From Desulforhabdus amnigena (GTDB lineage: Bacteria; Desulfobacterota; Syntrophobacteria; Syntrophobacterales; Syntrophobacteraceae), in NCBI RefSeq assembly GCF_027925305.1, contig NZ_BSDR01000001.1, positions 2,445,001-2,509,000 of the forward strand: DNA of 64,000 bases, given 5' to 3'. Below, in pieces: positions 24,716 to 41,816 of this stretch. The translations under genes and the position numbers were made by a program. Position 1 is the first letter of the stretch. Each line of letters starts with the position of its first letter. The notes under the pieces were generated by a model. The model worked only from the letters and a program-made list of their open reading frames with translations, was not told where the DNA came from and did no database searches.

Positions 24716-24731
24716 TGGTATGAGGTTTGCT
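24716..24731 (+). promoter_or_regulatory. Sigma-54-type promoter upstream of soxB
   Basis: TGGTATGAGGTTTGCT has the invariant GG (24717-24718) and GC (24729-24730) separated by exactly ten bases, with TTGC at -12 as in the sigma-54 consensus TGGCACN5TTGC. The -24 half deviates at two positions. It lies about 220 bases before soxB in a long A/T-rich region (24431-24949) that would leave room for activator sites. The activator is not in the window. Confidence 0.5.
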
Positions 24732-24949
24732 CATAAGTCCTTGCAAAACTTGTAAAATGAAAAATCAACCGAAGTAGGACAAATGAAACTCGTAAATGTC
24801 ACTCTATTCAGTTCTTTCGAGGAAAGGAAGGCTTTTCAATGAAGTTCATTTAATGAACAAAAGGTTTCTGACAATTCAATAAATTTGAATCAAGAGAATT
24901 GTTTTGAGTCTCATGAGAAATATTTACCCAGACAACCTAAGGAGACCCC

Positions 24950-26170
24950 ATGTTCAAAAGATGCAAGCGACTGTGGAACACGTATCCGCTCAAATCTCAT
25001 TACGATGCAGTGATCATCGGGGGGGGATTGCACGGGCTGGCGACGGCCTATTTCCTGGCCAGCCGCCACGGGATGACCCGTGTGGCGGTTCTCGAGAAAC
25101 GCTACATCGGCTTCGGAGGTTCGGGGCGCAACACGGCCATCGTGCGGGCCAATCAGCGCACCCAGGAAAATCTTCCCCTTTACAAGGAAGCCCTGGACCT
25201 CTGGCCGGTCTTGACCAAAGAACTGGATTTCAACCTCATGTTCTACAACTGCGGCAACCTCAACCTGGCTCACAGTGAGGCGGCCCTCAAGGCCATGCGC
25301 ATGCAGGTGGCTTCGGCCCAGTTCAATGGCGTCAAAATCGAACTGGTGGATCGCAGGGAATGCAAGGAGCTGATTCCCATCCTGGATATTTCCGATCGGC
25401 CCCGATATCCCATTTTTGGAGGAATGTTTCACCCTCCCGGAGGCATCGTGCGCCACGATGCCGTCGTGTGGGGACTGGCAAGAGGGGCATCCAAGTACGG
25501 AGTCCATATCCACCAGGGAACGGAAGTGCAGGGGATCGGAGTCCGGAACGGAAAGATCCAACATGTGGATACCGACAAAGGAAGGATTCACACCCCCAGG
25601 GTCCTGACGGCTGCGGGGGGCTATTCGGCCGATATTTCCTACCGGATGCTCGGCATCAAGCTCCCCATCAGCCCTTTGACGATTCAGGCCATGGTGACGC
25701 AGCCCTTGAAGCCGATCCTGCACCACGTGGTCTCCTCGGGCATGTACCACTGCTACGCCAATCAGACCCTCAAGGGAGAGATTGCCACGGGAGCCCACAT
25801 GGACCCCTGGCCCAACTACACCACTCGGACGAGCGCCCACTACATCAAGCACCAGGCCGAAGCCCTGGGTGAGATGATCCCGTGCCTGAGAGGCGTGAAA
25901 TTCATGCGCACCTGGGCGGGGCTGGCCGACATGACCCCCGATATGGCTCCCATCATGGATGGGAACGACCACATTCAGGGCTACTATATGGATTGCGGAT
26001 GGGGGTATTTCGGGTTCAAGTCGTGTGCCGTCACCGGCAAGTACATGGCCGAATTCATGGCAAAGGGCGAATGCCCGGAAATCTTGAAGCCTTTCACTCT
26101 ACGGCGCTTTCAAAACCACAACCTCATGGGGGAAACGGCCGCCCTCGTGGAATATACATCCGACAACTAA
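24950..26170 (+). CDS. soxB: SoxB-type beta subunit of sarcosine oxidase / N-methylglutamate dehydrogenase family
   Basis: A 406-residue FAD-dependent amine oxidoreductase. The dinucleotide-binding motif is YDAVIIGGGLHGLATAYFLA (residues ~19-38), and a GFGGSGRNTAIVRANQRTQ segment follows, typical of SoxB where flavin is held. It ends with AGLADMTPDMAPIMDG and a CGWGYFGFKSC-type segment. It oxidises the N-methyl group of sarcosine or N-methylglutamate; electrons pass to the SoxA flavin. AAGGAG precedes the ATG. It is the first gene of a tight soxB-D-A-G operon behind a likely sigma-54 promoter. SoxB and MgdA are homologues, so substrate cannot be read directly; the neighbouring mgs/gmaS-type genes favour N-methylglutamate. 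Confidence 0.88.
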   Translation: MFKRCKRLWNTYPLKSHYDAVIIGGGLHGLATAYFLASRHGMTRVAVLEKRYIGFGGSGRNTAIVRANQRTQENLPLYKEALDLWPVLTKELDFNLMFYNCGNLNLAHSEAALKAMRMQVASAQFNGVKIELVDRRECKELIPILDISDRPRYPIFGGMFHPPGGIVRHDAVVWGLARGASKYGVHIHQGTEVQGIGVRNGKIQHVDTDKGRIHTPRVLTAAGGYSADISYRMLGIKLPISPLTIQAMVTQPLKPILHHVVSSGMYHCYANQTLKGEIATGAHMDPWPNYTTRTSAHYIKHQAEALGEMIPCLRGVKFMRTWAGLADMTPDMAPIMDGNDHIQGYYMDCGWGYFGFKSCAVTGKYMAEFMAKGECPEILKPFTLRRFQNHNLMGETAALVEYTSDN

Positions 26171-26183
26171 AAGGAGGCTTCTC

Positions 26184-26462
26184 ATGTCATTGCAGATCAC
26201 CTGTCCCATCTGCGGAAAACGCAGTGGGTATGAATTCCGTTACGGAGGGGAAGAAAAGGGTCCCAGGCCCGAAACGTCCGATCTCACACCGGAAGCTTGG
26301 TGTGAATATGTCCACATGAACAAATCGACGGCAGGCATTCAGGAAGAATGGTGGTGCCATCGAAGCGGCTGCGGGAGTTGGTTTCGCATCCATCGTGATA
26401 CGCGTACCAACCTCCAGGTGCCGTCACCTGAAGCTGCCGAGGGATCGGAGGCGGAAAAATGA
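26184..26462 (+). CDS. soxD: SoxD-type delta subunit (zinc protein)
   Basis: Ninety-two residues. The N-terminal SLQITCPICGKRSGYEFRYG contains the CxxC zinc site of SoxD, and the second ligand pair comes from HRSGCGSWFRIHRDT. It continues with the usual aromatic/basic C-terminus. SoxD is a structural zinc subunit of the heterotetramer. AAAGGAGG lies about seven bases upstream. It sits 13 bases after soxB and overlaps soxA by four bases (ATGA). The order B-D-A-G is the same as in known sarcosine oxidase and N-methylglutamate dehydrogenase operons. Confidence 0.88.
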   Translation: MSLQITCPICGKRSGYEFRYGGEEKGPRPETSDLTPEAWCEYVHMNKSTAGIQEEWWCHRSGCGSWFRIHRDTRTNLQVPSPEAAEGSEAEK

Positions 26463-29380
26463 ACAGATTGAACCAAATGCCAACGCTTCGAGTGCACCCG
26501 GAAAAGAAAGTCACCTTTCGCTACGGAAAGAAAACCATCCGGGGGATGGAAGGGGATACGATCGCCACGGCCCTCTATGCCGCAGGAGTGCGCATTTTCT
26601 CTCGCAGTCTCAAGTATCACCGTCCGCGCGGCCTCTACAGCCTGGATGGCGAATGCAGCAACACCATGATGAAGGTAGACGGTATGCCCAATGTCTCGGC
26701 AGAAAAGACCTTCATTCGAAACGGCATGGTGGTGGAACCCCAGAATTGCCTCGGCAGCCCGGAATGGGATTTCATGAGTTTCATGGACAAAATGAGCTGG
26801 GCTATGCCGGCTGGATTCTATTACCGCGTTTTTCACAGGCCCGCCAGGCTATGGCCTCATGTGATCAAGCTCATTCGAAACGCTGCAGGCCAGGGAGCGC
26901 TTTCGCCCGATTTTGAAATGAAGGGCCGGTTCGACGAGATTTTTCCCCGGGCGGATGTCTGTGTCATCGGTGGCGGTGCCGCGGGAATGTCGGCTGCGCT
27001 GGCTGCTGCGGAACAGGGACTTCGCGTGATTCTTCTGGAAGCGAGACCCTGGCTGGGAGGCTGCTGGGAATACCGCGCCCTTCCTTACGACGGGGATGTT
27101 CCCCTTTATGAAAAGGCCCGGGAACTGGCCCGGCGCGTTGAAGAACACGACGGAATCCGGGTCTTGAAACATACGGCGGTGGTGGGGACCTACCCTGGGA
27201 ATGTCGTCACGGGCTTTCAAAAAGGCGGCTCATCCGATTCCTTCGACGAACGCTACATTGAAATCCGGGCGGAAAGCGTCGTGGTCGCCACGGGATGCAT
27301 CGAACGCCCCCTGCTCTTTGACAACAATGAACGGCCGGGAGTCATGCAGGCGGGATGCGCCCAGCGTCTGGCAAGAACCTGGGGGCTGCTGCCGGGAAAA
27401 AAGGCCGTTTTCAGCGTGGGGCACGACCTGGGGCTTGAAACAGCGCTGGACCTCTTCGACCTCGGAGTGGAGATCGCCTGCATCGCAGACCACCGGATGG
27501 ACGGACAGTCCCCTGCCCTCCTTTCCAAACTGGCCGGCCGCAAGATCCCTCTTCTCAAGGGATGGGTCGCCGCCAGGGCCCACGGACGAAAAGGTGTCAC
27601 GGGAGTCACCCTGACCACCCACAATGGAATTCGCCGGCGTGAGTATCCGTGCGATCTGTTGGTGGCGTCCGCGGGACTCACTCCTGTTTCGGGTCCCCTC
27701 AGCCTGGCGGGAGCCAAACTTGCCTACGACGGTGCGACCGGCTTCTTCCTGCCCGTGAGCTTCCCGGAAAAAATGCACGCAGCAGGACGTTTGCTGGGAC
27801 TCTCTGAAGGAAAATCCCTGGAGATGTCCGGAAGGATCGCCGGCCTTCGCGCCGCCATGGACTGCGGGAAAAACACGGCTTCCGAGCTGGAAGACGTTCA
27901 AAAAAAGCAGGCCGCGACCACCGCTCCTTCCCACGGTTGCAAACATGTCATGGCGCCGGTGAAAGGCCGCAAGACCTTCATTTGTTTCGATGAAGACACA
28001 ACGGTGAAAAACGTGGATCAGGCCATGAAGACGGGCTTCGATGTGCCGGAACTCATCAAGCGCTGGACAGCAGCGGGAACCGGCCCCGGCCAGGGAGGCA
28101 TTCCCGGGCACAATCTTCCTCTTTATGTCGCTCAAACGGGAGACTCACCCGACCGGGACCCGAGACCCACCACCGTGCGTCCGCCGCTGGTCCCCACCCT
28201 CATTGCCACCTATGCCGGCTCCAACCATGACATGAGCAAACGGACCCCGATGCACGATGCGCAGGTGGCCGCAGGCGGCCGCATGGAACGCATCGGAGTA
28301 TGGAATCGCGCCCGCCGCTTCAGCGACGACCTGACGGTCCGGGACGAAATCCTCAATGTACGCAACAACGTCGGCATGCTCGATTCTTCGACCTTGGGCA
28401 AATTCAGGCTCTTCGGGCCCGACGCCCTGAAGGCTCTCCAGCGCGTCTACGTGGGAGATATGTCCAAGACCGTCGAGGGCAGGGTCAAATATTCCGCCAT
28501 GTGCAATGAAGACGGCTGTGTCATCGACGACGGCGTCGTCATCAAGCGAGGGGAAAACGAATACTACCTGACCAGTTCCACGGTTAGAGCCGGCGCCACC
28601 GCCGAGTGGTTCCACTACCATACCCGCTACGAAAAATGGGACTACCACATCGTGAACCTCACGGACGCCTTTGGAGTCATCAACCTGGCAGGTCCCAACA
28701 GCCGGAAAGTCCTGGAAAAAGTGACCGATGCGGATGTTTCCAACGAGGGTTTTCCCTTCATGGGCTACAGGGAATTTTTCATCGAGGGAGAAATCCCCGT
28801 CCGGGCCATGCGGCTGGGTTTTGTCGGGGAGCTCTCGTATGAATTCCACGTCCCATCCTCTTACATGCAGGCTCTCTGGGACGTTCTGGAAGAAGCGGGG
28901 CAGCCTTTCGGCATAAAAAACTTCGGGTTGGAAGCCCAGAACGTACTGCGGCTGGAAAAGGCTCATGTCATTCTGGGAGCGGAATCCGAACAGCGGACAA
29001 CCCTGCATGACATCGGGCTCGGCTTTCTCTGGGCGCGCAAAAAACCGGAATGTCAAACGGTAGGTGTTGCAGCCCTGCGGCATACGGAACATCAGAAGGG
29101 ACGTTTGAAACTGGTGGGATTCCAAATGGCCGACGGGTCTGCCCGTCCACCCAAAGACGGGTCCATCATTGTGGACAGCAGGATTCGCGGATATGTCTGC
29201 ACCGCCAGGTACTGCCCGGCGCAGGAAAAGACCGTCGGGCTGGCATTGGTGGAGGATTCCCTCACGGAAATGGGCACTCGCCTGGGAATCTACGAAGATG
29301 GCTGTGAAGGGAAGCTGCTCCATGGAGAAGTGATTCCAACCCCCTTCTACGATCCCGAAGGCACGCGGATGAAGATGTAG
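26459..29380 (+). CDS. soxA: SoxA-type alpha subunit
   Basis: A 973-residue multidomain subunit. Residues ~15-110 are a ferredoxin-like Fer2_4 domain (FRYGKKTIRGMEGDTIATAL). Residues ~160-490 hold the pyridine-nucleotide/FAD module (VCVIGGGAAGMSAALAAAEQ). Residues ~500-560 are a SoxA_A3-type insert (ICFDEDTTVKNVDQAMKTGF). From about 590 to 965 the C-terminal GcvT folate-binding and barrel domains run (FRLFGPDALKALQRVYVGDM and a GELSYEFHVPSSY segment). The folate domain can receive the released methylene group as 5,10-methylene-tetrahydrofolate, avoiding free formaldehyde. Length is within the family norm. Confidence 0.9.
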   Translation: MNRLNQMPTLRVHPEKKVTFRYGKKTIRGMEGDTIATALYAAGVRIFSRSLKYHRPRGLYSLDGECSNTMMKVDGMPNVSAEKTFIRNGMVVEPQNCLGSPEWDFMSFMDKMSWAMPAGFYYRVFHRPARLWPHVIKLIRNAAGQGALSPDFEMKGRFDEIFPRADVCVIGGGAAGMSAALAAAEQGLRVILLEARPWLGGCWEYRALPYDGDVPLYEKARELARRVEEHDGIRVLKHTAVVGTYPGNVVTGFQKGGSSDSFDERYIEIRAESVVVATGCIERPLLFDNNERPGVMQAGCAQRLARTWGLLPGKKAVFSVGHDLGLETALDLFDLGVEIACIADHRMDGQSPALLSKLAGRKIPLLKGWVAARAHGRKGVTGVTLTTHNGIRRREYPCDLLVASAGLTPVSGPLSLAGAKLAYDGATGFFLPVSFPEKMHAAGRLLGLSEGKSLEMSGRIAGLRAAMDCGKNTASELEDVQKKQAATTAPSHGCKHVMAPVKGRKTFICFDEDTTVKNVDQAMKTGFDVPELIKRWTAAGTGPGQGGIPGHNLPLYVAQTGDSPDRDPRPTTVRPPLVPTLIATYAGSNHDMSKRTPMHDAQVAAGGRMERIGVWNRARRFSDDLTVRDEILNVRNNVGMLDSSTLGKFRLFGPDALKALQRVYVGDMSKTVEGRVKYSAMCNEDGCVIDDGVVIKRGENEYYLTSSTVRAGATAEWFHYHTRYEKWDYHIVNLTDAFGVINLAGPNSRKVLEKVTDADVSNEGFPFMGYREFFIEGEIPVRAMRLGFVGELSYEFHVPSSYMQALWDVLEEAGQPFGIKNFGLEAQNVLRLEKAHVILGAESEQRTTLHDIGLGFLWARKKPECQTVGVAALRHTEHQKGRLKLVGFQMADGSARPPKDGSIIVDSRIRGYVCTARYCPAQEKTVGLALVEDSLTEMGTRLGIYEDGCEGKLLHGEVIPTPFYDPEGTRMKM

Positions 29381-29503
29381 TGGAAGCAGAAGGCTCGCCG
29401 GAATCCTGTGTTTTTAGTAACTTACAAAATTTCTTTGCCCCTGATTTTCACCGGGGTGACGACTTTTTCGAATGCATCACGTGCAATACCGGGAGGAATA
29501 TAC

Positions 29504-30133
29504 ATGAAAACCATAAGGAGAATTTCGCCGGTAGTTTTTCCCGCCCGGCCCCTTGAAACCGAAATTCGAGGGGCGTGGCAGGTGGTTCTTCAATATGAGA
29601 AGGAACATGAAGAAGCGCCTTTTGTGACCGATCTGAGCCACCGTCTCAAATGGATTTTGCAGGACGCCCAAATCGGCGCGTTCACCCCCTTTGGAATTCG
29701 GATACCCGAGGTGCCGGGGGAAAGCGTTCTCCAGGGCGGATTTGTCGTCAGCCGCACCGGGCGCACCGGCGCATCCATCTATCAGCTCTGGGGAGAAGCG
29801 GCGGCTTCCCCCCAGGAAGCCGCTTTCACGGAGGTCACTGAGGGATACATGATGACCGCAGTGGTGGGACGTGGTGTCTTTGGCATCGCGGAAAAACTCA
29901 CCTCCATGGATCTCGGCGATCCCCAAAAGGAGGCGCCTTTCCTGGTGCAGGGACCGTTTTCGCATGTCCCTTCCCAGGTTGTGGTTCTGAAAAGAAACGG
30001 CCTTGACGGAGCCTTCCTCGTGGCATGCTCACGTGGATATGCGAAAGACATGGTTCACGCCATCATGGATACAGGGGAGGAATTCGGGCTGCGCCCAGCC
30101 GGAACCAAGCGATTCGAAAGCGCTCTGGCGTAA
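29504..30133 (+). CDS. soxG: SoxG-type gamma subunit
   Basis: About 209 residues, resembling SoxG/GcvT-like small subunits. A short basic start (MKTIRRISPVVFPARPLE) is followed by an alternating sheet/helix core. The last third contains PFSHVPSQVVVLKRNGLDGA and an ACSRGYAKDMVHAIMDTGEE segment. It completes the heterotetramer and packs on the folate side. GGGAGG is about eight bases before the ATG; a longer frame from 29408 lacks a ribosome site. It is 123 bases after soxA. The family is divergent, so the call rests on operon position as much as on sequence. Confidence 0.78.
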   Translation: MKTIRRISPVVFPARPLETEIRGAWQVVLQYEKEHEEAPFVTDLSHRLKWILQDAQIGAFTPFGIRIPEVPGESVLQGGFVVSRTGRTGASIYQLWGEAAASPQEAAFTEVTEGYMMTAVVGRGVFGIAEKLTSMDLGDPQKEAPFLVQGPFSHVPSQVVVLKRNGLDGAFLVACSRGYAKDMVHAIMDTGEEFGLRPAGTKRFESALA

Positions 30134-30293
30134 AACGGGTGAAACAGGATGATTTGACGGAAAGAAACCAGGAGCGATACGACCTTGTTGACGGGAACCC
30201 ATCGAAGCTGTTACCCTTTTTTAGGATTCAGATGAGGGGGTTTCCATTCCGCAAGGTTTCGAGAGGGAAACCGATCTGTCGACAACTCAGGCC

Positions 30294-30923
30294 ATGCAAG
30301 AGAAAATGAAGACTCCGCATTCAGAAAGTAGCGAACAGAGTGGCCAGAACAACAAATTGGAACTGGCTATAGGGCGTGAAATACGCAGCTTCCGAAAAAA
30401 GATGGATCTCACCATCGCTGAACTGGCCAAGCTGGCCGGCCTTTCCGCCGGCATGCTTTCCAAAATCGAAAACGGAAACGCTTCCCCTTCTCTTGCAACG
30501 CTTCAATCCCTCTCTCAGGCTCTGAACATTCCGGTCACGGCATTCTTCCGAAAGTTCGAAGAAGAGCGTGACGCCAGTTATGTTCGAGCCGGTCAGGGGC
30601 TCGTCATCGAGCGGCGGGGAACACGGGCGGGCCATCAGTACAGGCTTCTCGGGCACAGCGTGGGCAAGAGCATCAATGTCGAACCTTACCTCATCGAACT
30701 GTCCGAAAAGTCGGAGGTCTTTCCTCTTTTCCAACATCCCGGCATGGAATTCATCTATATGCTGGAAGGGAAGATGCTCTACATGCACGGCAACCGGTCG
30801 TACCCTCTCCTGCCGGGAGATTCCCTCTTCTTCGACGCCGACGCTCCCCACGGGCCGGAGGAGCTCAACGAACTGCCCATAAAGTTTCTCTCCATCATCG
30901 TCTCCCCAAGGTTTTCAGAGTAA
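30294..30923 (+). CDS. XRE-cupin transcriptional regulator
   Basis: A 209-residue regulator. The N-terminal HTH (residues ~23-78) reads IGREIRSFRKKMDLTIAELA, then LAGLSAGMLSKIENG and ASPSLATLQSLSQALNIPV. The C-terminal cupin (~130-207) has the metal or ligand-binding barrel (HPGMEFIYMLEGKMLYMHG, then SYPLLPGDSLFFDADAPHGP). Proteins of this design often control polyamine, amine or amino acid catabolism and bind the substrate in the cupin. It lies between soxG and the mgs-type genes on the same strand, making it the best local candidate for sensing the pathway substrate. It is not a sigma-54 activator. Start uncertain between 30294 and 30306. Confidence 0.85.
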   Translation: MQEKMKTPHSESSEQSGQNNKLELAIGREIRSFRKKMDLTIAELAKLAGLSAGMLSKIENGNASPSLATLQSLSQALNIPVTAFFRKFEEERDASYVRAGQGLVIERRGTRAGHQYRLLGHSVGKSINVEPYLIELSEKSEVFPLFQHPGMEFIYMLEGKMLYMHGNRSYPLLPGDSLFFDADAPHGPEELNELPIKFLSIIVSPRFSE

Positions 30924-31316
30924 CACCAGGTAAACCGGCCAGGAAATGCGCCGCGATACCCCGTACGGCTCCGCGCAAATAAATGATCAAAATCCCATTT
31001 ATGCGGGCATGTACTAGCCGGTATACGGTGGCGAAAGCTCTCTCGCCCCACTGAACGATTCAATCCCTCGAGAAGGGGCAGGGGGATAAAGCTCGAACAA
31101 CATCCCCCTTCAAAGGGGGAGTTCATATCGGCATCTGCCCCGGGGGCTTTTTTGCCTGGAAAATATTTCATTAAATGAAAAAAAAGTGAATGAAATTTGC
31201 ATAGTTCTTCCCTGAATGTGAAACGTTCAAAAACCATCCCCACATTGTGACAAGGGAAGGTTCGAAAAAGGGAGAGCTGAGTTTTTATCTTGGGAGTTTT
31301 ACTTCGGGAGGTACTC
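30924..31316. other. Intergenic region with GC hairpins before mgsA-like gene
   Basis: About 390 bases. Between 31060 and 31150 there are C/G runs (CCCCCTTCAAAGGGGG, and CCCCGGGGGC followed by a T run) that could form a terminator after the regulator gene. An A/T-rich part from 31165 includes a TGAATGAAATTTGCAT segment that matches only the -12 half of a sigma-54 promoter. No gene was seen. Confidence 0.45.
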
Positions 31317-32237
31317 ATGTGCGCCATAGCAGGGATTCTTCGTAAAAACGGCAAAAGCAAAAAACTGAAAAAAACAACGGGAGAAGCGCTCACAGAAATG
31401 CTGGACGCCACCTTACACCGCGGTCCCGATTCCGCCGGATGGGCTCTCTACAAAGAACCCGTGGGAGAAGAACTCCGGCTGCGCTTTTTCGTTTCTCAAG
31501 GTGAAGGGATGGACAAAGACCGGGAACGCATAGGCAAAAGGCTGGCCGATTTGAACGCCACGGTGACCGATGCGGAAGTGACGGGCTGCACCTATGGCAT
31601 CCGCATTCGATATAGTGGAGATATCCTTTCGCTGACCCACGGCCTGGAACGGGATTTCAAACTGGTCTCCATGGGAACGAGCCTCGACATCATCAAGGAC
31701 GTGGGGCAGCCGCGGGAAATTTCCGACCGCTACGGAATCGGAGCTTTCGACGGCACACACGGCATCGCCCACATCCGCCTTGCCACCGAATCGGGAGTCC
31801 ATCCCCAGACTTCTCATCCATTCTGGGCCTCCGGCTTCGCGGATGTGGCCACAGTACACAACGGACAGCTCACCAACTACTGGATCATGCGCCGCCGGCT
31901 GGAGCGGCAGGGAATGATCTTTCAGACGGAAAACGATACGGAACTCATCGCCGTCTACCTGGCGTACCAGATGAGCCAGGGAGCATCCCTTGAAGACGCT
32001 CTCAAGGAATCCCTGGACGACCTGGACGGCACATTTTCGTACCTTGTCGCGACAAAAGATTCCATCGGGTACGCCAAAGACAAACTGGCCGCCAAGCCTC
32101 TGGTCATCTGTGAAAATGACGACCTGATAGCCGTTTCATCCGAGGAAGTCGGGCTGAACCGGCTTTTTCCGGGAGAGGCCCTCGAGACCGTGGAACCGGC
32201 TCCCTTTACCTGCGGGCTCTGGTCGCGAACCGTCTGA
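31317..32237 (+). CDS. mgsA: Class II glutamine amidotransferase, MgsA/GlxB type
   Basis: About 306 residues. Translation from 31317 (GGGAGG six bases upstream) exposes Cys2 (MCAIAGILRK) as the N-terminal nucleophile. Other glutaminase features are DATLHRGPDSAGWALY, GIAHIRLATESGVHPQTSHP, VATVHNGQLTNYWIM and QTENDTELIAVYL. This is a stand-alone glutaminase domain as found in split glutamate synthases. In N-methylglutamate synthase it would release methylamine from gamma-glutamylmethylamide, or ammonia from glutamine. It is 76 bases upstream of the fused synthase subunit. Confidence 0.85.
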   Translation: MCAIAGILRKNGKSKKLKKTTGEALTEMLDATLHRGPDSAGWALYKEPVGEELRLRFFVSQGEGMDKDRERIGKRLADLNATVTDAEVTGCTYGIRIRYSGDILSLTHGLERDFKLVSMGTSLDIIKDVGQPREISDRYGIGAFDGTHGIAHIRLATESGVHPQTSHPFWASGFADVATVHNGQLTNYWIMRRRLERQGMIFQTENDTELIAVYLAYQMSQGASLEDALKESLDDLDGTFSYLVATKDSIGYAKDKLAAKPLVICENDDLIAVSSEEVGLNRLFPGEALETVEPAPFTCGLWSRTV

Positions 32238-35300: not shown

Positions 35301-35406
35301 CATCCACAACCTGGAACCGGAGGACATGCGCAGCATCACCCTGGCAACATCCAAAGCTCTCGACATTCCTCTGGCGTCGGGCCGAAAAAAACGGGAAGGC
35401 TTTTAG
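32314..35406 (+). CDS. Fused glutamate synthase-like protein: GXGXG + FMN domain + extra FMN-like domain
   Basis: A 1030-residue protein. Residues ~1-220 are the GXGXG beta-helix (GGNAGAIAGEALRGGEIVIK, GDNMLAGSIVVGG), equal to a MgsB/GlxC subunit. Residues ~300-690 are the FMN-binding glutamate synthase barrel (SMPVMIAPMSYGAVSGKMKA, GENTG-like NTGEGGMYS, MGGIRNGVDAAKAIALGA), with the Fe-S cysteines at CTGCMQCSTGNCPVG (~residue 555), equal to MgsC/GlxD. Residues ~705-1030 look like a second, decayed FMN domain: LVFLSAALTRLVIDPYREEC resembles the family start, and FGGMRSGTDVAKVLALNC resembles the phosphate-binding loop. No cluster cysteines are seen there. The subunits are normally separate and the third domain is unusual. 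It likely makes glutamate or N-methylglutamate from 2-oxoglutarate. Confidence 0.82.
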   Translation: MATIDLSSMSIRTVNEVIKGYGANHQDVELINPDARHYIAVGLTNPIKIKIRGSAGYFCGGLTDGPTIEVEKNVSWGVGDNMLAGSIVVGGNAGAIAGEALRGGEIVIKGNMGSRAGQVMKKGTLCCVGNSSFMAGYMMYGGRLIILGNSGLKVGEDMAGGAIFVGGALESLGNDAMVCEPTREDIDGIMEFLDRYGITFQGSFKKIVCAGKGLRYSKPEVQKRYIPFKEFSGGNAAYWNEKVQEDIRIKGEIGRYRIRGYGAARHIPHFQDIAFKADLSKAGKDADGLSRVNLRTFVGGKHGGRALDLSMPVMIAPMSYGAVSGKMKAALGAASRLSGISENTGEGGMYSVERAEARQLIAQCLSGRLGWNIHDMKRADALELYISQGAKPGLGGQLMASKLTREIAEMRGIPAGMDLRSPSRHPDVLGGDDLIMKIQEFREAVGGRLPVGLKLGAGRTRDDIKIALKDDLDFVELDGLQGGTGAAACEVLEYVGIPTIAAIMEARDGLAEIDAEGELPIVLMGGIRNGVDAAKAIALGATAVGLGTSMLIAAGCTGCMQCSTGNCPVGIATQNEKYTERFDVESKALRMHKYLESIRWQLASIVQALGYTDVRQLSRNDLVALTPEAAEMTRLPYDPGYRNKFTGLREESERFERGKSETGSAGFSRRDRIAIQAMSKADARNTEKQREILMQLLRPGENPFPENRPAHLDDLVFLSAALTRLVIDPYREECSTRTRISRSAGLGRVPAGAPWVDLAQPFLFTGFDAAPLDVKAALAKSLAETQCAYVGRMPLMEGIPGNEEEAWKKVFWFQILCNGDCPHPEAAALVHAPGNTFKPMEMERQSSSQLLGMVATAKTLREALPHALEKQMDFLLLDSSLGMEHPWAELKGQPDLTLMRDAIHLLRDMNREEEIALINFGGMRSGTDVAKVLALNCKASVFGVAAGIALGGRVEGKSVHFDTPMTMEERSTAMTQWIKGTAQETAIIARCTGKTDIHNLEPEDMRSITLATSKALDIPLASGRKKREGF

Positions 35407-35499: not shown

Positions 35500-35523
35500 A
35501 AATAAAATCTGACAATGTCAAGT

Positions 35524-35898: not shown

Positions 35899-37929
35899 AT
35901 GCAAATACCGCTTCTGAGCGACATTGTGATCATCTTTGGGCTGGCCATCGGTGTGCTCTATATATGCCACCAGTTGCGCATCCCGGCCATTGTCGGGTTC
36001 CTTTTGACAGGCGTATTGGCGGGACCTCACGGGTTCGGTCTGATCGGCGCCGTTCACGAGGTGGAAGTCCTGGCTGAAATAGGGGTGGTGCTGCTCCTTT
36101 TCACCATCGGCCTCGAATTTTCCATGAAAAGCCTCTGGCAGCTCAAAAGGTCGGTTCTTATCGGCGGTTCCTTCCAGGTATTTGCGACCCTCCTCATTAC
36201 ATTTCTCATAGCCAGAATGCTCGGCCAGGACGTTGGAAAATCCATATTCCTCGGCTTCCTGGTATCCCTGAGCAGCACGGCCATAGTCCTCAAGCTTTTG
36301 CAGGAAAGAGCCGAGGTAGATAGCCCTCAGGGCAGGATCGACCTTGCTATCCTGATCTTTCAAGATGTGGTTGCCGTTCCCATGATGCTTCTCATCCCCC
36401 TCATGAAGGGAGGCGAGGGAAATGTTTCTGGGACTTTCACGATGCTCTTCCTCAAAGGAATAGCAATCGTGGTCCTGGCTATATTCAGCGCCAGATGGGT
36501 TGTTCCTCATGTTCTCTTTCAGATTGCAAAGACAAGAAGCAGAGAGCTCTTTCTCCTCACCGTCGTCGTCATGTGCCTCTCGGTTGCCTGGCTTACATCA
36601 AGCATCGGGCTCTCACTCGCTCTGGGAGCATTTCTCGCCGGTCTCATTATCTCGGAATCGGAATATAGCTACCAGGCCCTGAGTAACCTCCTCCCCTTTC
36701 GCGATCTTTTCACGAGCATCTTTTTCATCTCTATAGGCATGCTGGTCGATTCCCGCGTGATGCTCGAGCATCCAGTAATGGTCGTTTTGATCATTTTGGG
36801 CATCCTGGTCCTAAAAACAATCCTGGCAGGCGGCGCGGCCGCTCTTTTGGGATACCCTTTCCGCACGATGGTCCTATCGGGGCTGGCACTCAGCCAGATC
36901 GGCGAGTTTTCCTTCATCCTCTCCAAGGCAGGGGTCAAGCACGGTCTTCTTTCCGGAAATGCATATCAGGTTTTTCTTGCAGTATCCGTTCTCAGCATGG
37001 CGGCAACCCCTTTCATCATTGCACAGGGAGTTCCCATTGCCGCCCTGCTCATGCGTTTTCCTATGCCGGTGAGGCTGCAAACCGGCCTGAAACGTGCGCC
37101 CAAGGAGCCCGTAAACAACGGTCAAGAAATTCCAAAGGACCATCTCCTCATCATAGGCTACGGGCTAAACGGCAGGAATGTGGCGCGTGCCGCCAGGAGT
37201 GCCGGCATCCCCTACATGATCGTTGAGATGAATCCAGTGACGGTAAAAAAAGAGAAAGCGAAGGGAGAACCCATCTATTTTGGGGATGCGAGCCAGGAGG
37301 CCGTCCTTGAACATGTGGGCGTGCACAATGCAAGGATCATGGTCGTTGCCATCCCCGACCCTGTCGCTACCCGAATGGTGGTAGCGTCAGCCCGCAGTCT
37401 CAACCCAAGGCTGCACATCATCACCAGGACCCGCTATTTGCCGGAGATGAAGCCGCTTTACGAGCTTGGCGCAAACGAAGTCATTCCGGAAGAATTTGAA
37501 ACTTCGGTTGAAATCTTCAGCCGGGTTCTCGCCAAATATCTCATCCCAAGGGATGAGATCGAGCGATTAGTAGCCGGGGTTAGAAACGACGGTTACGGAA
37601 TGCTGAGAAGCCTTTCAGAGGAGGCCACAACCTTTTGTTCCCCGTCTTTTTGTGACTACAGGCTCTACCTTCCCGACGTCCAAATCTGTTCATTAAGGGT
37701 GAAAGAGGGAGCCCCTATAGCAGGAAAAACGCTTGCTCAAGTGGGTTTGAGAAAGAGATACGGGGTTACGCTCCTCTCGATCCGTCGAAACTCGGAGATG
37801 GTCTCCAATCCAGGAGCCGACACCATATTCCTTGCCGGGGATATTTCCATCCTGGTCGGAACCCCGGAAAAGATTGCACAGATACAGCACTTATTTGAAT
37901 CCGGCAGCGAGGAGATTGCACCTTCTTAG
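35899..37929 (+). CDS. CPA2 cation/proton antiporter with TrkA-N and TrkA-C domains
   Basis: A 676-residue KefB/YbaL-type transporter. About twelve hydrophobic segments span residues 5-385, with the CPA2 motif RIDLAILIFQDVVAVPMMLL (acidic ion site) and FTIGLEFSMKSLW. A TrkA-N Rossmann domain follows (DHLLIIGYGLNGRNVARAAR, residues ~415-530). A TrkA-C domain (~590-670, VKEGAPIAGKTLAQVGLRKR) completes it. Such proteins exchange K+, Na+ or NH4+ for H+ under nucleotide control. It lies between the glutamate synthase-like gene and the glutamine synthetase-like gene, followed by a second CPA2 gene. The ion is unknown; ammonium or methylammonium efflux is possible given the context. Confidence 0.87.
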   Translation: MQIPLLSDIVIIFGLAIGVLYICHQLRIPAIVGFLLTGVLAGPHGFGLIGAVHEVEVLAEIGVVLLLFTIGLEFSMKSLWQLKRSVLIGGSFQVFATLLITFLIARMLGQDVGKSIFLGFLVSLSSTAIVLKLLQERAEVDSPQGRIDLAILIFQDVVAVPMMLLIPLMKGGEGNVSGTFTMLFLKGIAIVVLAIFSARWVVPHVLFQIAKTRSRELFLLTVVVMCLSVAWLTSSIGLSLALGAFLAGLIISESEYSYQALSNLLPFRDLFTSIFFISIGMLVDSRVMLEHPVMVVLIILGILVLKTILAGGAAALLGYPFRTMVLSGLALSQIGEFSFILSKAGVKHGLLSGNAYQVFLAVSVLSMAATPFIIAQGVPIAALLMRFPMPVRLQTGLKRAPKEPVNNGQEIPKDHLLIIGYGLNGRNVARAARSAGIPYMIVEMNPVTVKKEKAKGEPIYFGDASQEAVLEHVGVHNARIMVVAIPDPVATRMVVASARSLNPRLHIITRTRYLPEMKPLYELGANEVIPEEFETSVEIFSRVLAKYLIPRDEIERLVAGVRNDGYGMLRSLSEEATTFCSPSFCDYRLYLPDVQICSLRVKEGAPIAGKTLAQVGLRKRYGVTLLSIRRNSEMVSNPGADTIFLAGDISILVGTPEKIAQIQHLFESGSEEIAPS

Positions 37930-38068
37930 AACCTATCCGGAAACCACCTGTGGACTTTGCGACACCCCCCTTGGTCCCCCCTCGAGGGGGGAATTAAAGG
38001 GGGGTGTCCACTGCCGGGGAAGGTTTTCGGATAGGTCTTAAAGCCTATCTGAAAACCTTCCCCGGCAA
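37927..38068. repeat. Dispersed GC-rich repeat, copy 3, with a large inverted half
   Basis: From 37930, AACCTATCCGGAAACC, TGGACTTTG and CACCCCCC, with CCCCCCTCGAGGGGGG and a closing GGTTTTCGGATAGGT, align with the copy at 57443-57558. The end forms a further inverted repeat: 22-base arms from CCGGGGAAGG.. (about 38017) and ..CCTTCCCCGG (to about 38067) differ at one position. It separates the two antiporter genes. Confidence 0.65.
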
Positions 38069-38084
38069 ATGCGAATTGGTTTTC

Positions 38085-38119
38085 CCCCTGGCAGACGAAC
38101 CTTCTGCCGGGGTTTTCTT
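38085..38119 (+). terminator. Rho-independent terminator between the antiporter genes
   Basis: CCCC-T-GGCAG pairs with CTGCC-GGGG around a nine-base loop, with one bulged T, and is followed directly by TTTTCTT. It lies downstream of the first antiporter gene and its repeat, 62 bases before the second antiporter start, so the second gene probably has its own promoter. Confidence 0.65.
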
Positions 38120-38181
38120 ATGCCCGAATCGAGTTGCCGGGGATTTCCCATTTCCCGTTGTTAGAGAGAGGTAATTTGCAT

Positions 38182-39918
38182 ATGCACGAAATTGATCTTC
38201 TATCGAACATTGGACTTTCTATTGTTGCTGCAACGTTTTTCGCGCTTCTTGCCAGGGCTTTGAAGCAGCCGTTGATTCTGGCTTACCTTGCGGCAGGAAT
38301 CGTGGTCGGGCCGAAAATAGGCTTTGGGCTGATCCAGGACGAGGCGAGCATCACGCTCATCTCAGAAATAGGGCTTATTCTTCTCCTTTTCATCATCGGC
38401 CTCGAAATCGATCTGAGAAAGCTTCTCTCGGCCGGACGGACCCTCATCGTCTCGGGTCTTTCCCAGTTTCTCATCTGCGCAGCGCTGGGAATCGGTTTTT
38501 TTTCCCTCATAGGCTTCGACTTGCGAGGCGGCCGATTCGATGCGCTTTATCTTGCCGTAGCGATGGCATTGAGCAGCACGATGATCGTTGTAAAGATCCT
38601 CTATGACAAGTTTGAACTCTCTACACTGCCAGGACAAATCACTCTCGGAATCCTCGTCTTTCAGGATATCTGGGCTATTCTCTTTTTATCCCTACAGCCG
38701 AATCTCATGAGCCCGGGAGCGTCGATCATTCTGCTCTCGTTTGTGAAGGGAGCCGGCCTTGTGCTTTTTAGCCTTGCCGTAAGCAAGTACCTTCTCTCGC
38801 ACGTCTTTTCCTTCATCGCAAAGATCCCTGAACTGCTTCTCGTAACCGCCATCGCCTGGTGCTTTCTCATAAGCGGTATCGCAGGTGAAGTAGGGCTTTC
38901 CAAGGAAATGGGAGCCCTTGTGGCGGGAGTGAGTCTCTCCACATTTCCCTACAATATCGACGTCATTTCCAAGGTGACCAACATAAGGGATTTTTTCGTG
39001 ACACTTTTCTTCGTCGGCCTCGGGCTTCAGATCCCTGTTCCAACAGCCTCGCTCCTTGCCTACGCCGCTTTAGCCTCCCTCTTCCTCGTCGCGACGAGAT
39101 TTCTCTCCGTCTTTCCCATTCTCTACTCCATGAAGGAAGGGTTGCGCTCGAGTCTTATCCCGTCCATCAACCTGTCGCAGATGAGCGAATTTTCCCTCGT
39201 CATTGCATCCCTGGGGCTCGGCTTCAACCACATCGATTCCCAGGTGGTGGGGATTTTGACTTTCGTCTTTGCCATCACATCGGTCGCATCAACCTACATG
39301 ATCCAATACAACCACGAAATCCAACTGAGGATCGCTCCTGTTCTGGAAAAATTCGGTTTGAAGGATATCGACAGGCAATCCTCTACCGGAGAGGCAGTAG
39401 AACAACCAAAGGAGATTGTCTTTCTCGGGTTTTACAGGGAAACGAGCTCGGTCTTTTATGAAATCGAGTCCATGCTGGATGAAAATGGAGTTCCACTTGC
39501 AAAGAAGGTGCTGGTGATCGACTTCAACCCCGTGGTTCATTGTGAACTGAATAAACGCGACGTCAAGTGCATCTATGGGGATATTTCGAGTGTGGACACG
39601 CTGATGCATGCACACGTCAATCATACTAAGACGCTGGTGTGCACCATCCCGGATACCATCCTTCGCGGCACAACCAATGAAAAACTGCTGAGCCTCTCAA
39701 GACGCCTTTGCCCGCAGGCCCGGGTAATAGTAACCGCCAACACCTTGCAGGCGGCCCTGAACCTCTATCAGCAAGGAGCGGACTTTGTCTTCATCCCGAG
39801 AATACACTCGGCAGGATTAGTGGCCAGGGTCATCTCCGATTCTTTGCATGAGAACCTCGAGCACTATCGGGAGGAAGAAATGACACATCTCCTGGCCCGC
39901 AAGGAAGTCCTTGACTGA
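38182..39918 (+). CDS. CPA2 cation/proton antiporter with degenerate TrkA-N domain
   Basis: About 578 residues. Membrane domain ~5-385 with GPKIGFGLIQDEASITLISE, LLLFIIGLEIDLRKLL and QITLGILVFQDIWAILFLSL. Downstream, residues ~415-560 form a TrkA-N-like domain (PKEIVFLGFYRETSSVFYEI, KRDVKCIYGDISSVDTLMHA) in which the usual GxGxxG loop is replaced by GFYRETS, so nucleotide binding may be altered. No TrkA-C domain follows. AGAGAGG lies about ten bases before the ATG at 38182; a longer frame from 38134 has no ribosome site. It is paired with the larger CPA2 protein upstream. Confidence 0.85.
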   Translation: MHEIDLLSNIGLSIVAATFFALLARALKQPLILAYLAAGIVVGPKIGFGLIQDEASITLISEIGLILLLFIIGLEIDLRKLLSAGRTLIVSGLSQFLICAALGIGFFSLIGFDLRGGRFDALYLAVAMALSSTMIVVKILYDKFELSTLPGQITLGILVFQDIWAILFLSLQPNLMSPGASIILLSFVKGAGLVLFSLAVSKYLLSHVFSFIAKIPELLLVTAIAWCFLISGIAGEVGLSKEMGALVAGVSLSTFPYNIDVISKVTNIRDFFVTLFFVGLGLQIPVPTASLLAYAALASLFLVATRFLSVFPILYSMKEGLRSSLIPSINLSQMSEFSLVIASLGLGFNHIDSQVVGILTFVFAITSVASTYMIQYNHEIQLRIAPVLEKFGLKDIDRQSSTGEAVEQPKEIVFLGFYRETSSVFYEIESMLDENGVPLAKKVLVIDFNPVVHCELNKRDVKCIYGDISSVDTLMHAHVNHTKTLVCTIPDTILRGTTNEKLLSLSRRLCPQARVIVTANTLQAALNLYQQGADFVFIPRIHSAGLVARVISDSLHENLEHYREEEMTHLLARKEVLD

Positions 39919-40321
39919 TATAAGCCTGGAAACCGAGTAAATTGCATCGATTCCCAAAAAACGGCTAATATGTTCCAGACCGTCCCAAAAGCAAAATGAA
40001 ACATTTTTGTTATTTTTTTATTTACTCCAAAACCTCATTTCAGCCCGGTTCGCACCCGCCGGCTAAAGAGAAAATTGGATCAGCGGACTGTTATAATATG
40101 CATGGACAGTCCGCTGATTTCATTTTTTACAAATCTTTTCAATGAAATAATCATTGAATACAAAACAGGACCCTGCCCGGTTGAATTCCGAAAAAACATT
40201 CAAGTAATAGAACAAATTTGTATCGATCATTCCCGCAACGAATGGCTTAAGACAAGCATTTATATAAGAATATAATCAATTATATCATAAGTTTGAAAGC
40301 ATTACAGAAAATGCTGCAGGA

Positions 40322-40338
40322 TTGGCACAGGAACTGCT
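40322..40338 (+). promoter_or_regulatory. Sigma-54-type promoter upstream of the gmaS-like gene
   Basis: TTGGCACAGGAACTGCT keeps a full TGGCAC at -24 and CTGC at -12. GG (40324-40325) and GC (40336-40337) are exactly ten bases apart. It lies 63 bases before the start codon at 40401. The whole gap 39919-40400 is A/T-rich and also contains a TATAAT-like box and a palindromic pair AGCGGACTGT / ACAGTCCGCT near 40083-40115 that may be an operator or hairpin. Confidence 0.65.
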
Positions 40339-40400
40339 TAAAGATTCATGACAAGAAAAAAATAATCATAAAGGTAAAAACAAAAAAGAGAGGATCGGTC

Positions 40401-41816
40401 ATGACTCTGACGGCTGCTGTGCAAGACACCATGGACAATGGCAACAGTGATTTGAGGCAACAGGTCCGGCAAAGACTCCAGGAGCAGGGCATCGAATTCA
40501 TTCTGGCTCAGTTTGTGGACATTCACGGAGCTCCCAAGGTCAAGCAGGTACCGGTGAATTGCTTCGAAGGCCTGATCGACGAAGGAGCCGGGTTTGCCGG
40601 GGGAGCGGTGTGGGGGCTCGGACAGGGACCGGAAAGTCATGATCTCATGGCGAGGACGGACCTTGCCACCTATTGCCGGCTGCCCTGGAGACCGAACGTG
40701 GCCATCGCAAGCTGCGATCTTTACGTGGATGATGAACCGTGGCCCTATTGCGCTCGCAACAATCTCAAGCGCATGATGGGAATCTTTGCTGCGGAGGGCT
40801 ATGCCCTCAATGGGGGCTTCGAGCCGGAACATTTCCTCGTCATGCGCAGACCGGATGGTGGTCTGATGCCTTGGGACCCGCAGGGAATCGACAAACTGGC
40901 CAAGCCCTGCTACGACTTCAAAGGCATGTGCCAGGCTATGGATTACCTGCAGGACATCATCCGATATGGCAACCAGATGGGCTTTGATATCTACCAGAGC
41001 GACCACGAGGATGCCAATGGTCAATATGAGATCAATTTCGGCTGGTCCGATGCTCTGACTTCAGCAGATCGCCTGACCCTTTTCAGGATGATGGCGGGTC
41101 AGGTTGCAACCAAATACGGGGCCATCTGCACCTTCATGGCCAAACCCTTTCAGAACAGGACGGGATCGGGGGCGCATCTGCACTTCCATGTGGCGGATGT
41201 ACTGAACAGGAGAAATCTGTTTCCTCTCAAGAAGGGTGAAAAAGATCGCAAGGGATTGGGAATTTCCAAGACGGCAGTCCATTACGTGGGAGGACTCCTC
41301 AAACACATTCGCGCCATCACCGCCGTCGCTTCTCCCACAGTCAATTGTTACCGCCGCATTCAAAGCGGTGAATTCGTCTACTCCACCGCTTCGGGTTACA
41401 CGTGGACTCCTGCGTATGCATCCTACGGAGACAACAACCGGACCCAACTCTTCAGATGTCCCGATTCTAACCGTTTTGAAGACAGGTCTCCTTCGGGCAT
41501 GGTGAATCCCTACCTGCTTCTGGCAACTCACATGGCGGCGGGTCTGGACGGGATCAAAAATGAAATAGACCCCGGGGAAGCCATTCTGCGGGAAAATGTC
41601 TGGAACCTTTCCCATGAAGAACGAAGAAAACGTGGAATGATCCTGCTGCCCCAGAACCTGATGGAAGCCATCGAAGCCCTGGAGGAAGACGAAGTGGTAA
41701 AGTCGGGGCTGGGACCCATCGCGGATGAGTACATTCGCTTGAAAAAAGCGGAATGGAGCGAATTCATGCGCCAGGTCACACCATGGGAAGTGAGCCGCTA
41801 TCTGACCATGCTGTAG
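40401..41816 (+). CDS. gmaS: GlnT/GmaS-type glutamine synthetase family protein (probable gamma-glutamylmethylamide synthetase)
   Basis: About 471 residues of the glutamine synthetase fold. The N-terminal beta-grasp reads LAQFVDIHGAPKVKQVPV. Catalytic regions are GGFEPEHFLVMR (metal Glu), IYQSDHEDANGQYEINFG and TGSGAHLHFHV (His), and the ATP/phosphate loop is SGEFVYSTASGYTWTPAYAS. FAGGAVWGLGQGP and the ending EWSEFMRQVTPWEVSRYL are features I associate with GmaS/GlnT and not with GlnA. There is no adenylylation loop of GlnA type. It would ligate methylamine (or ammonia) to glutamate using ATP. GAGAGG precedes the ATG at 40401. A sigma-54 promoter lies just upstream. Methylamine specificity is inferred from the company of sox- and mgs-type genes. 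Confidence 0.78.
   Translation: MTLTAAVQDTMDNGNSDLRQQVRQRLQEQGIEFILAQFVDIHGAPKVKQVPVNCFEGLIDEGAGFAGGAVWGLGQGPESHDLMARTDLATYCRLPWRPNVAIASCDLYVDDEPWPYCARNNLKRMMGIFAAEGYALNGGFEPEHFLVMRRPDGGLMPWDPQGIDKLAKPCYDFKGMCQAMDYLQDIIRYGNQMGFDIYQSDHEDANGQYEINFGWSDALTSADRLTLFRMMAGQVATKYGAICTFMAKPFQNRTGSGAHLHFHVADVLNRRNLFPLKKGEKDRKGLGISKTAVHYVGGLLKHIRAITAVASPTVNCYRRIQSGEFVYSTASGYTWTPAYASYGDNNRTQLFRCPDSNRFEDRSPSGMVNPYLLLATHMAAGLDGIKNEIDPGEAILRENVWNLSHEERRKRGMILLPQNLMEAIEALEEDEVVKSGLGPIADEYIRLKKAEWSEFMRQVTPWEVSRYLTML

Follow-up and report, generated by a model that had tools for sequence, protein, structure and literature searches.

A candidate N-methylglutamate-type methylamine gene cluster in the Syntrophobacteraceae bacterium Desulforhabdus amnigena

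Methylamine use in anoxic sediments is generally attributed to methanogens equipped with corrinoid methyltransferases. To our knowledge, the route in which glutamate carries the methylamine is so far known from oxygen-breathing and denitrifying bacteria. As laid out in the available parts of PMC5023228 and PMC3160333, the N-methylglutamate (NMG) pathway of methylotrophs and marine bacteria shares its three enzymes and its folate acceptor domain with a gene cluster of Desulforhabdus amnigena, which differs in its MgsB-MgsC fusion with an extra degenerate FMN-type domain, in the lack of a GltD-like module beside the synthase, in SoxBDAG subunits that form their own clade, and in a host that carries dsrA and CODH/ACS. 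Acinetobacter plasmids have the same kind of regulator beside glnT. Roseovarius pacificus IR27, which was isolated with methylamine and N2O, resembles what is proposed here: it oxidises methylamine anoxically and has sarcosine-oxidase-type genes that its authors tie to the NMG pathway, but according to the accessible part of the report it is a denitrifier with a glycine cleavage pathway rather than a sulfate reducer (PMC12798041). Heterotetrameric sarcosine oxidases (1vrq, 2gag) share the SoxBDAG architecture and several conserved residues, whereas the SoxBDAG described here falls into a separate clade and below the NCBIfam sox cut-offs. The corrinoid/pyrrolysine methyltransferases MttB and MtmB, covered for marine Deltaproteobacteria in the available part of PMC8318568, also act on methylated amines in an anaerobic setting, but are unrelated enzymes; neither MtmB nor MTTB has a match in the D. 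amnigena genome. In that same part, gmaS appears only in the reference list. In the one open-access library searched, nothing was found on N-methylglutamate in Desulfobacterota or with methylamine in sulfate reducers; among the matches listed for N-methylglutamate together with methylamine in anaerobic settings, none dealt with sulfate reducers as far as the title or the opening of the abstract shows, and nothing on topic by title was found for sarcosine oxidase in Desulfobacterota.

The window, meaning the whole 64-kb stretch that was analysed, covers positions 2,445,001-2,509,000 of contig NZ_BSDR01000001.1 (assembly GCF_027925305.1), and coordinates below are its own. The entire cluster, from soxB to a YbaK-like gene, lies on the plus strand at 24950-42409. 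A first-pass annotation had placed soxBDAG, a class II glutaminase, synthase domains and a synthetase on one strand of this region, which domain and family matches bear out; it had omitted the HTH-cupin regulator and the two Kef-type antiporters lying among them. The features are as follows.

24845..24857, no strand assigned: candidate operator TTCATTTAATGAA, a palindrome upstream of soxB
24950..26170, plus: SoxB/MgdA-like flavin subunit (406 aa; DAO E 1.2e-67, TIGR01373 E 3.2e-120)
26184..26462, plus: SoxD/MgdB-like subunit (92 aa; PF04267 E 4.1e-26; CxxC...H...C residues kept)
26459..29380, plus: SoxA/MgdC-like subunit (973 aa; dinucleotide-binding and folate domains, GCV_T E 7.6e-68; TIGR01372 E 4.5e-201)
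29408..30133, plus: SoxG/MgdD-like subunit (241 aa; assigned by a weak GCV_T match of 31.1 bits, position and relatives)
30294..30923, plus: HTH-cupin regulator, PuuR-like (domain matches; homologues in relatives' clusters)
31167..31179, no strand assigned: candidate operator TTCATTAAATGAA, upstream of the glutaminase gene
31317..32237, plus: class II glutamine amidotransferase, MgsA-like (GATase_7 E 2e-15; starts Met-Cys)
32314..35406, plus: MgsB-MgsC fusion with a degenerate FMN-type domain (1030 aa; GXGXG E 2.2e-17, Glu_synthase E 1.2e-92)
35899..37929, plus: Kef/CPA2-type antiporter with TrkA-N and TrkA-C (676 aa)
38134..39918, plus: second Kef/CPA2-type antiporter (594 aa)
40401..41816, plus: GmaS-type gamma-glutamylmethylamide synthetase (likely start 40401, the ORF opening at 40293; TIGR03105 510.9 bits, cut-off 469.6)
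41846..42409, plus: YbaK-type (tRNA_edit) protein
42543..45302, minus: formate dehydrogenase alpha, an opposite-strand neighbour (TIGR01591 875 bits, cut-off 666)
45327..47252, minus: NuoF/GltD-like flavoprotein adjoining formate dehydrogenase (32% to the relatives' GltD-like module)

No match to a tRNA or an Rfam family was found in the 64 kb, and a search of viral contigs found nothing. Much of the same gene set recurs together in other genomes, so the cluster is not a chance assembly. GmaS (E <= 1e-80) and the GXGXG-FMN fusion (E 0) occurred in the same 7 of 59 genomes, D. amnigena included (Fisher 2.9e-9, kinship ignored), and the window's SoxB type was found in six of these seven compared with 7 of the 52 others (2.4e-4); weak SoxB matches in three genomes (G018, G046 and G048; 27-29% identity) and a weak MgsBC-like set in G018 were left out of these tables. 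Of 18 genomes selected because they carry the fusion, six of them among the 59, 15 also have SoxB. SoxBDAG adjoins the Mgs genes in the window and in 7 of the 18 corresponding loci, and adjoins the regulator in two more loci; the YbaK-type gene likewise has a homologue in 7 of the 18. The complete linked set is present in Desulfatitalea alkaliphila M08but, and an annotated plasmid of Acinetobacter shows this set too, in the order purU-folD-soxBDAG-like-amt-regulator-glnT-glutaminase-glxC-FMN synthase. The Kef antiporters had no match in the first set of relatives' stretches and only one (30%, L087) in 80 further loci.

The synthetase does not look like an ammonia enzyme, judging from its residues and family placement. 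In an alignment it was identical to Rhodovulum GmaS (RhGmaS) at all 19 compared positions, which include residues of the amine pocket and of catalysis and most of which are named in the available part of PMC7948447. Eight of these positions (Lys30', Ala48', Tyr147, Tyr174, Gln175, Asp177, Asn188 and Trp300) separate GmaS from glutamine synthetase and differ in all three PDB glutamine synthetases as well as in the organism's own GlnA; Asp50' and Glu327 of glutamine synthetase are replaced by Ala and Trp. The best PDB match was a glutamate-methylamine ligase (414 bits); Rhodovulum GmaS scored 326 and the best glutamine synthetase 249. In the synthetase tree, the window protein falls in a 14-row clade of its own (100/100), next to the groups containing 9qur and 7cql, and the three PDB glutamine synthetases separate together with one long row at 97/88. 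Rows of the desulfobacterial type have a flap four residues longer.

All three parts of MgsABC were found, the GXGXG and FMN synthase domains of the first-pass annotation being one fused protein. In this protein, GXGXG (MgsB) spans aa 31-166, Glu_synthase (MgsC) aa 306-611 and a third, degenerate FMN-type barrel about aa 646-1030; it carries C-x5-C-x4-C, which we take to be the 3Fe-4S motif. Only ORFs above 1000 aa were counted as fusions, since the FMN domain on its own aligns with the degenerate domain at 27-30%, which makes apparent fusions in ORFs of 654-684 aa an artefact. In the FMN-domain tree, drawn without the GltS row of L025, MgsBC and MgsC formed separate sub-clades that stood with one further row apart from eight GltS rows, the organism's own GltS included (95/93). 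No GltD-like (NAD(P)H) module adjoins the synthase in the window, and none lies beside it in 12 of the 19 loci compared; the pathway is probably a variant marked by the MgsB-MgsC fusion and the lack of this neighbour. A published threshold for mgsC, 81% identity to Methylobacterium extorquens PA1 according to the available part of PMC5023228, would probably be missed by such sequences, since a relative (L029) shares only 39% identity with Acinetobacter MgsC.

SoxBDAG is the weakest link of the pathway reading. All four subunits are present, SoxG by weak match and position; the folate domain of SoxA that had been noted is there, but is not diagnostic since sarcosine oxidase also has one. Three NCBIfam sox models were matched below their curated cut-offs (401.7 versus 529.45, 79.3 versus 116.5 and 670.2 versus 1164 bits). 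SoxB keeps a His aligned with residue 173 of 2gag_B and an Arg and a Lys aligned with residues 70 and 358, which presumably bind FMN and the carboxylate. SoxD keeps CxxC, H and C, presumably zinc-type ligands, as in sarcosine oxidase, whereas Acinetobacter MgdB is without them. In unrooted SoxB and SoxA trees with Acinetobacter-type MgdABCD as the Mgd reference, the proteins grouped neither with those rows nor with the 1vrq/2gag sarcosine oxidases but in a third clade, with a mean identity to the sarcosine oxidase clade of 38% (SoxB) and 30% (SoxA). Among 39 SoxB columns that separate the Mgd from the sarcosine type, this clade follows Mgd in 15, sarcosine oxidase in 4 and neither in 20; the 28 corresponding SoxA columns gave 8, 3 and 17. 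We did not accept membership of this clade by itself as proof of N-methylglutamate dehydrogenase: how three clades group cannot be read from unrooted trees, and the clade also occurs without Mgs. The N-methylglutamate reading of the first-pass annotation is supported in part, by the synthetase and the FMN domain, and may extend to SoxBDAG. A [2Fe-2S] outlet through Fer2_4 of SoxA was also considered and rejected, as the domain matches but residues 10-125 hold only two Cys.

Homologues of the regulator occur in the clusters of relatives and, on plasmids of Acinetobacter and Pseudomonas, next to glnT. The sequence TTCATTNAATGAA has two exact matches in the 64 kb, upstream of soxB and of the glutaminase gene, against 0.01 expected from shuffles, a post hoc figure as the palindrome was first noticed by comparing upstream regions. 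A similar comparison on shuffles, also post hoc, gave any shared palindrome in 1 of 1000; these shuffles may understate chance since the real comparison yielded a second, terminator-like shared palindrome. No copy lies upstream of gmaS in the window, and at relatives' soxB genes 4 of 29 regions had a match with up to two mismatches, which is not significant (shuffled mean 1.1, maximum 4). The regulator probably controls soxBDAG and the mgs genes through this site.

Taken together, the cluster probably encodes an NMG-type methylamine route in a sulfate-reducing relative of the Syntrophobacteraceae; the basis is gene content, GmaS-type residues, family placement, co-occurrence and the shared palindrome, from which we infer substrates, electron carriers, direction, regulator-site pairing and induction. 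GmaS would join methylamine and glutamate with ATP to gamma-glutamylmethylamide, from which the glutaminase subunit would free methylamine within the complex. In a reaction like that of glutamate synthase with ammonia, the fused MgsBC would then condense the methylamine with 2-oxoglutarate and, on FMN, reduce the condensation product to N-methylglutamate. SoxBDAG would oxidise the N-methyl group to methylene-THF on tetrahydrofolate and regenerate glutamate, for a net output of ammonia and a C1 unit. As no GltD-like module adjoins the window synthase, its electrons probably come from ferredoxin or from a reductase not linked to it; one candidate is the GltD-like flavoprotein next to the formate dehydrogenase. 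The C1 unit would feed into the folate route of the organism, made up of FolD, formate-THF ligase, formate dehydrogenase and CODH/ACS. The genome holds dsrA, CODH/ACS, formate-THF ligase (FTHFS) and FolD, and dsrA with CODH/ACS supports the earlier view of an anaerobe, despite two COX1-family genes. Formate dehydrogenase is a possible last step of the C1 route, and we kept it as a neighbour but rejected it as a conserved cluster member, as it had no match in the 18 relatives' loci and only 26-27% matches in 4 of 62 others (L059, L060, L067 and L078).

A competing explanation, though an unlikely one, is that two modules neighbour each other, GmaS-Mgs serving methylamine and SoxBDAG acting as a sarcosine (or dimethylglycine) dehydrogenase; some other enzyme would then oxidise N-methylglutamate, if it is oxidised at all. 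The window's SoxB type is indeed not confined to GmaS/Mgs genomes, and its nearest relative (82%, G005) sits in a genome without them. Some contexts are betaine-like: in order-level relatives, a scan of L153 placed a ProV-type ABC gene and an MTTB gene close to SoxBDAG, and clustering recovered both families in L156 and that of ProV in L155. In Desulfobacteraceae SoxBDAG stands beside a dimethylglycine-dehydrogenase-like protein (L160) or DAO and ETF genes (L164), and in several of them the two modules lie apart. The SoxD residues agree with sarcosine oxidase, and NMG-linked rows do not form one clade, the NMG-context label requiring three changes on the SoxB tree and four on the SoxA tree. 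Against this stand the absence of an MTTB-type match from the D. amnigena genome, the column counts leaning to Mgd over sarcosine oxidase, the linkage of SoxBDAG and Mgs in eight loci, their co-occurrence and the identical palindrome; the last three speak for SoxBDAG being an N-methylglutamate dehydrogenase.

The same enzymes might instead serve methylamine as a nitrogen source only, with the C1 unit going to biosynthesis and yielding little or no energy, a variant of the NMG reading that does not exclude it and that we hold to be possible but doubtful. The synthase lies with Amt and a small protein, PII-like by eye, in five Desulfobacteraceae loci, and MtmB and MTTB are absent; C1 oxidation is nevertheless possible given SoxBDAG and the folate/CODH route. 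That the amine is another small alkylamine such as ethylamine is improbable: GmaS enzymes can use ethylamine, as stated in the available part of PMC7677707, and the longer flap would fit, but the full agreement with RhGmaS and the match between N-methyl oxidation to a folate C1 unit and SoxBDAG argue otherwise. An ordinary or auxiliary ammonia GS-GOGAT set is more improbable still. It has in its favour the NCBIfam name of the synthetase, type III glutamate--ammonia ligase, scored above cut-off; we rejected it because ammonia-site residues are replaced and because GlnA and a GltS-type set are encoded separately in the genome.

If the NMG reading holds, methylamine carbon and nitrogen would have a second fate under anaerobic conditions, namely a route in sulfate reducers that uses glutamate as carrier and needs no pyrrolysine, and surveys for gmaS at anoxic sites would give ambiguous results. 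More tentatively, Syntrophobacteraceae, Desulfatitalea and relatives might oxidise methylamine completely via N-methylglutamate, coupling a reversed folate/CODH route to sulfate reduction; in many of them the synthase would have lost its NAD(P)H module and be driven by ferredoxin. The route is testable in a named strain, since D. alkaliphila M08but has the whole linked set. Were complete oxidation true, methanogens would face sulfate reducers as competitors for a substrate that normally counts as non-competitive.

The genes considered here lie in the window, positions 2445001-2509000 of a 4.54 Mb genome on one contig, in the following layout (window coordinates):

24950-42409, plus strand: in order, soxB, soxD, soxA, soxG, an HTH-cupin regulator gene, a class II glutaminase gene, the gene for a 1030-aa fusion, two Kef-type antiporter genes, a type III glutamine-synthetase-like gene (gmaS below) and a YbaK-like gene
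32314-35406, plus strand: the fusion, MgsBC
35899-39918, within the cluster: two adjacent Kef/CPA2 antiporters
Beyond the YbaK-like gene, opposite strand: a formate dehydrogenase alpha gene and its NuoF/GltD-like partner

The soxB-D-A-G genes are spaced by gaps of 13 and 27 bases and one 4-base overlap, while 76 bases separate the glutaminase from the fusion and 29 separate gmaS from ybaK. These intergenic gap sizes suggest several transcription units, namely, soxB-D-A-G, the regulator by itself, glutaminase-fusion and gmaS-ybaK, with the antiporters in between. A Kef match was found in just 1 of 80 other loci (L087); the ion that these antiporters move may be K+, ammonium or methylammonium. 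Elsewhere in the window (16289-20259), an ORF with a VirJ-type domain is overlapped by a lysylphosphatidylglycerol-synthase-like gene.

The synthetase had been read in the first-pass annotation as a GlnT/GmaS-type enzyme, and the comparisons point to the second of these. Its top PDB match was 9qur, a "Glutamate--methylamine ligase" (414 bits), followed by the gamma-glutamylmethylamide synthetase (GmaS) of Rhodovulum (326 bits), with glutamine synthetases (GS) reaching at most 249 bits. PMC7948447 names the pocket, metal and catalytic residues of GmaS, in which Ala48′ replaces Asp50′ of GS and Trp300 replaces the GS flap Glu. The window synthetase matched the Rhodovulum enzyme at 19/19 compared positions; GS carries the same residue at 11 of these, and the other 8 differ both in all three GS from the PDB and in the type I GlnA of the organism itself, a protein distinct from the window synthetase. 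All 19 residues were present in 40 of 47 synthetase-like rows (window plus loci) and incomplete in seven. Furthermore, the 14 desulfobacterial-type rows, in which the flap is four residues longer, formed one clade (100/100) beside, not within, the groups holding 9qur and 7cql. By every residue compared, the window synthetase is predicted to work like GmaS, as a member of its own sub-group. In a divergent GS-like/glutaminase/GXGXG/FMN set at another locus (L038, G018:C46), several GmaS residues are missing, and this set perhaps serves another amine.

The fusion consists of GXGXG and FMN glutamate-synthase domains, followed from roughly residue 646 onward by a third domain. Its FMN domain grouped with those of the MgsC type, apart from eight GltS rows (95/93). 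In hhalign, an alignment of 15 third domains matched the FMN domain over its C-terminal half (probability 98.1, E 7.8e-14, 177 columns); the Cys cluster present in the genuine FMN domain was not seen in this alignment. In Foldseek, the predicted model of the third domain (mean pLDDT 73.8, pTM 0.69) matched barrels of the FMN and IMPDH types (E about 1e-7, probability 1.00), loosely so among the 50 matches listed (TM 0.33-0.53, rmsd at least 7 Å). In alpha- and gammaproteobacterial loci, the third domain is instead found at the C-terminal end of a protein of its own, behind a GltD-like N-terminal part. Across the window and loci L040-L057, some of them on short contigs, the domain was fused to MgsBC with no GltD-like match adjoining in 12 of 19 cases, and the GltD form was found in the remaining seven. 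The sole GltD-like match of the window is the formate dehydrogenase partner (32%); elsewhere in the genome, a separate GltS-type FMN protein has a GltD-like protein adjoining. The simplest reading is that the NAD(P)H module was lost and that ferredoxin or another reductase would supply the electrons. Apart from this, a GXGXG-FMN fusion accompanied by a separate GltD/degenerate-FMN protein is widespread among alpha- and gammaproteobacterial assemblies (loci L058-L119), often with a GmaS-type gene and in some cases with a flavin monooxygenase or formate-THF ligase. This arrangement may be another form of the synthase that has so far received little description; no fusion of the third domain to MgsBC longer than 1000 aa was seen in these loci.

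The substrate of SoxBDAG is the least secure point of the assignment. In trees, SoxB and SoxA of the window group formed a third clade, separate from the sarcosine-oxidase and Acinetobacter-type Mgd clades. Of 39 SoxB columns that consistently differ between the two types, the group resembled Mgd at 15, the sarcosine enzymes at 4 and neither type at the other 20; the respective numbers among 28 SoxA columns were 8, 3 and 17. SoxD of the group keeps the CxxC, His and Cys like most sarcosine-type rows, unlike Acinetobacter MgdB, which has lost them. Close SoxB relatives (up to 82%, in G005) also occur in genomes without GmaS or Mgs. Among SoxBDAG loci, for which domain scans covered representatives only, MTTB and ProV-type ABC genes lie downstream of SoxBDAG in L153 (scanned); clustering placed both families in L156 and the ABC family in L155, while L160 encodes a dimethylglycine-dehydrogenase-like protein and L164 DAO and ETF genes. 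The N-methylglutamate-context label required three changes on the SoxB tree and four on the SoxA tree. Given the tree placement, the SoxD residues and the relatives without GmaS or Mgs with their neighbours, SoxBDAG of this group may act on sarcosine, N-methylglutamate, or both by context. For the window enzyme, we favour N-methylglutamate, with dual use possible, because of the lack of MTTB in the genome, the linkage and the shared palindrome described below. As a separate observation, desulfobacterial SoxBDAG genes near ProV-type, MTTB, dimethylglycine-dehydrogenase-like or DAO and ETF genes (L153-L156, L160, L163 and L164) suggest an anaerobic betaine-to-glycine route with a folate-linked sarcosine enzyme as its last step.

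The same set of genes occurs on an annotated Acinetobacter plasmid (purU-folD-soxBDAG-like-amt-regulator-glnT-glutaminase-glxC-FMN synthase). In 7 of the 18 loci L040-L057, several on short contigs, SoxBDAG was found together with glutaminase and MgsBC (L040, L041, L043, L049, L051 from the named strain Desulfatitalea alkaliphila M08but, L053 and L054). In L158 and L159, the same regulator comes after SoxBDAG with no Mgs adjoining, and in Desulfospira joergensenii the set is split between two places. Among 59 genomes, which include that of the window organism as well as G010, G016, G020, G025 and G008 of its family, the seven with the GXGXG-FMN fusion (E 0) were exactly the seven with GmaS (E <= 1e-80). 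The SoxB type was present in six of these seven and in 7 of the 52 others, counts that leave out three matches of 27-29%. Fisher tests that ignore kinship gave 2.9e-9 for GmaS with the fusion and 2.4e-4 for the SoxB type with both. SoxB was also present in 15 of 18 genomes picked for having the fusion, six of which are among the 59. In loci L058-L119, the synthase unit recurs without nearby Sox genes, and mgd-type genes were found in 3 of 62 (L068, L081 and L093). By clustering, with names assigned by eye, 10 loci share a flavin monooxygenase, which we take to be trimethylamine monooxygenase, and six share a presumed formate-THF ligase; this fits with methylated amines.

The palindrome TTCATTNAATGAA has exactly two occurrences in 64 kb (expected, 0.01), at 24845-24857, where it ends 93 bases before soxB, and at 31167-31179, where 138 bases separate its end from the glutaminase start downstream; the motif was first found by looking, before this expectation was computed. 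When all short palindromes were compared in shuffles of seven upstream regions, 1 of 1000 shuffles had any shared one. The unshuffled regions also share another palindrome, terminator-like, with TCCCCC arms and a gap of 6, which lies upstream of both 31317 and 38134. Common control of the soxB and glutaminase units through the first palindrome, a candidate operator, is likely in the window genome. In relatives (at most two mismatches, the window's own two included), the motif was found upstream of soxB in 4 of 29 regions (shuffled mean 1.1, maximum 4), with one mismatch in L051, and of glutaminase in 10 of 76 (mean 2.05, maximum 7). Counts were 3/36 for the regulator, 2/43 for the synthetase and 1/8 for YbaK (shuffled means 0.84, 1.32 and 0.27). 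The motif is therefore weak among relatives, and common control may or may not extend to them as a rule.

The host genome encodes dsrA, above its cut-off, and CODH/ACS subunits, together with a formate-THF ligase gene adjoining FolD. GCV_T matches were limited to SoxA and SoxG, and neither MtmB nor MTTB had a match in this genome. Two COX1-family genes above cut-off (G000:C1:4237284-4238534 and 1823997-1825349) accompany dsrA and CODH/ACS, so that strict anaerobiosis of the host is inferred rather than demonstrated. The N-methylglutamate pathway is known in methylotrophs and inferred in SAR11 (PMC5023228, PMC3160333), and is linked to methylamine oxidation by a denitrifier grown with N2O (PMC12798041). 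Searches of one open-access library returned nothing on this pathway in sulfate reducers. Our overall confidence is slightly lowered because the palindrome at soxB was not significant among relatives. Taken together, these genes would encode a variant of a known pathway, with a predicted function, and an N-methylglutamate-type methylamine route in a sulfate reducer appears fairly probable.
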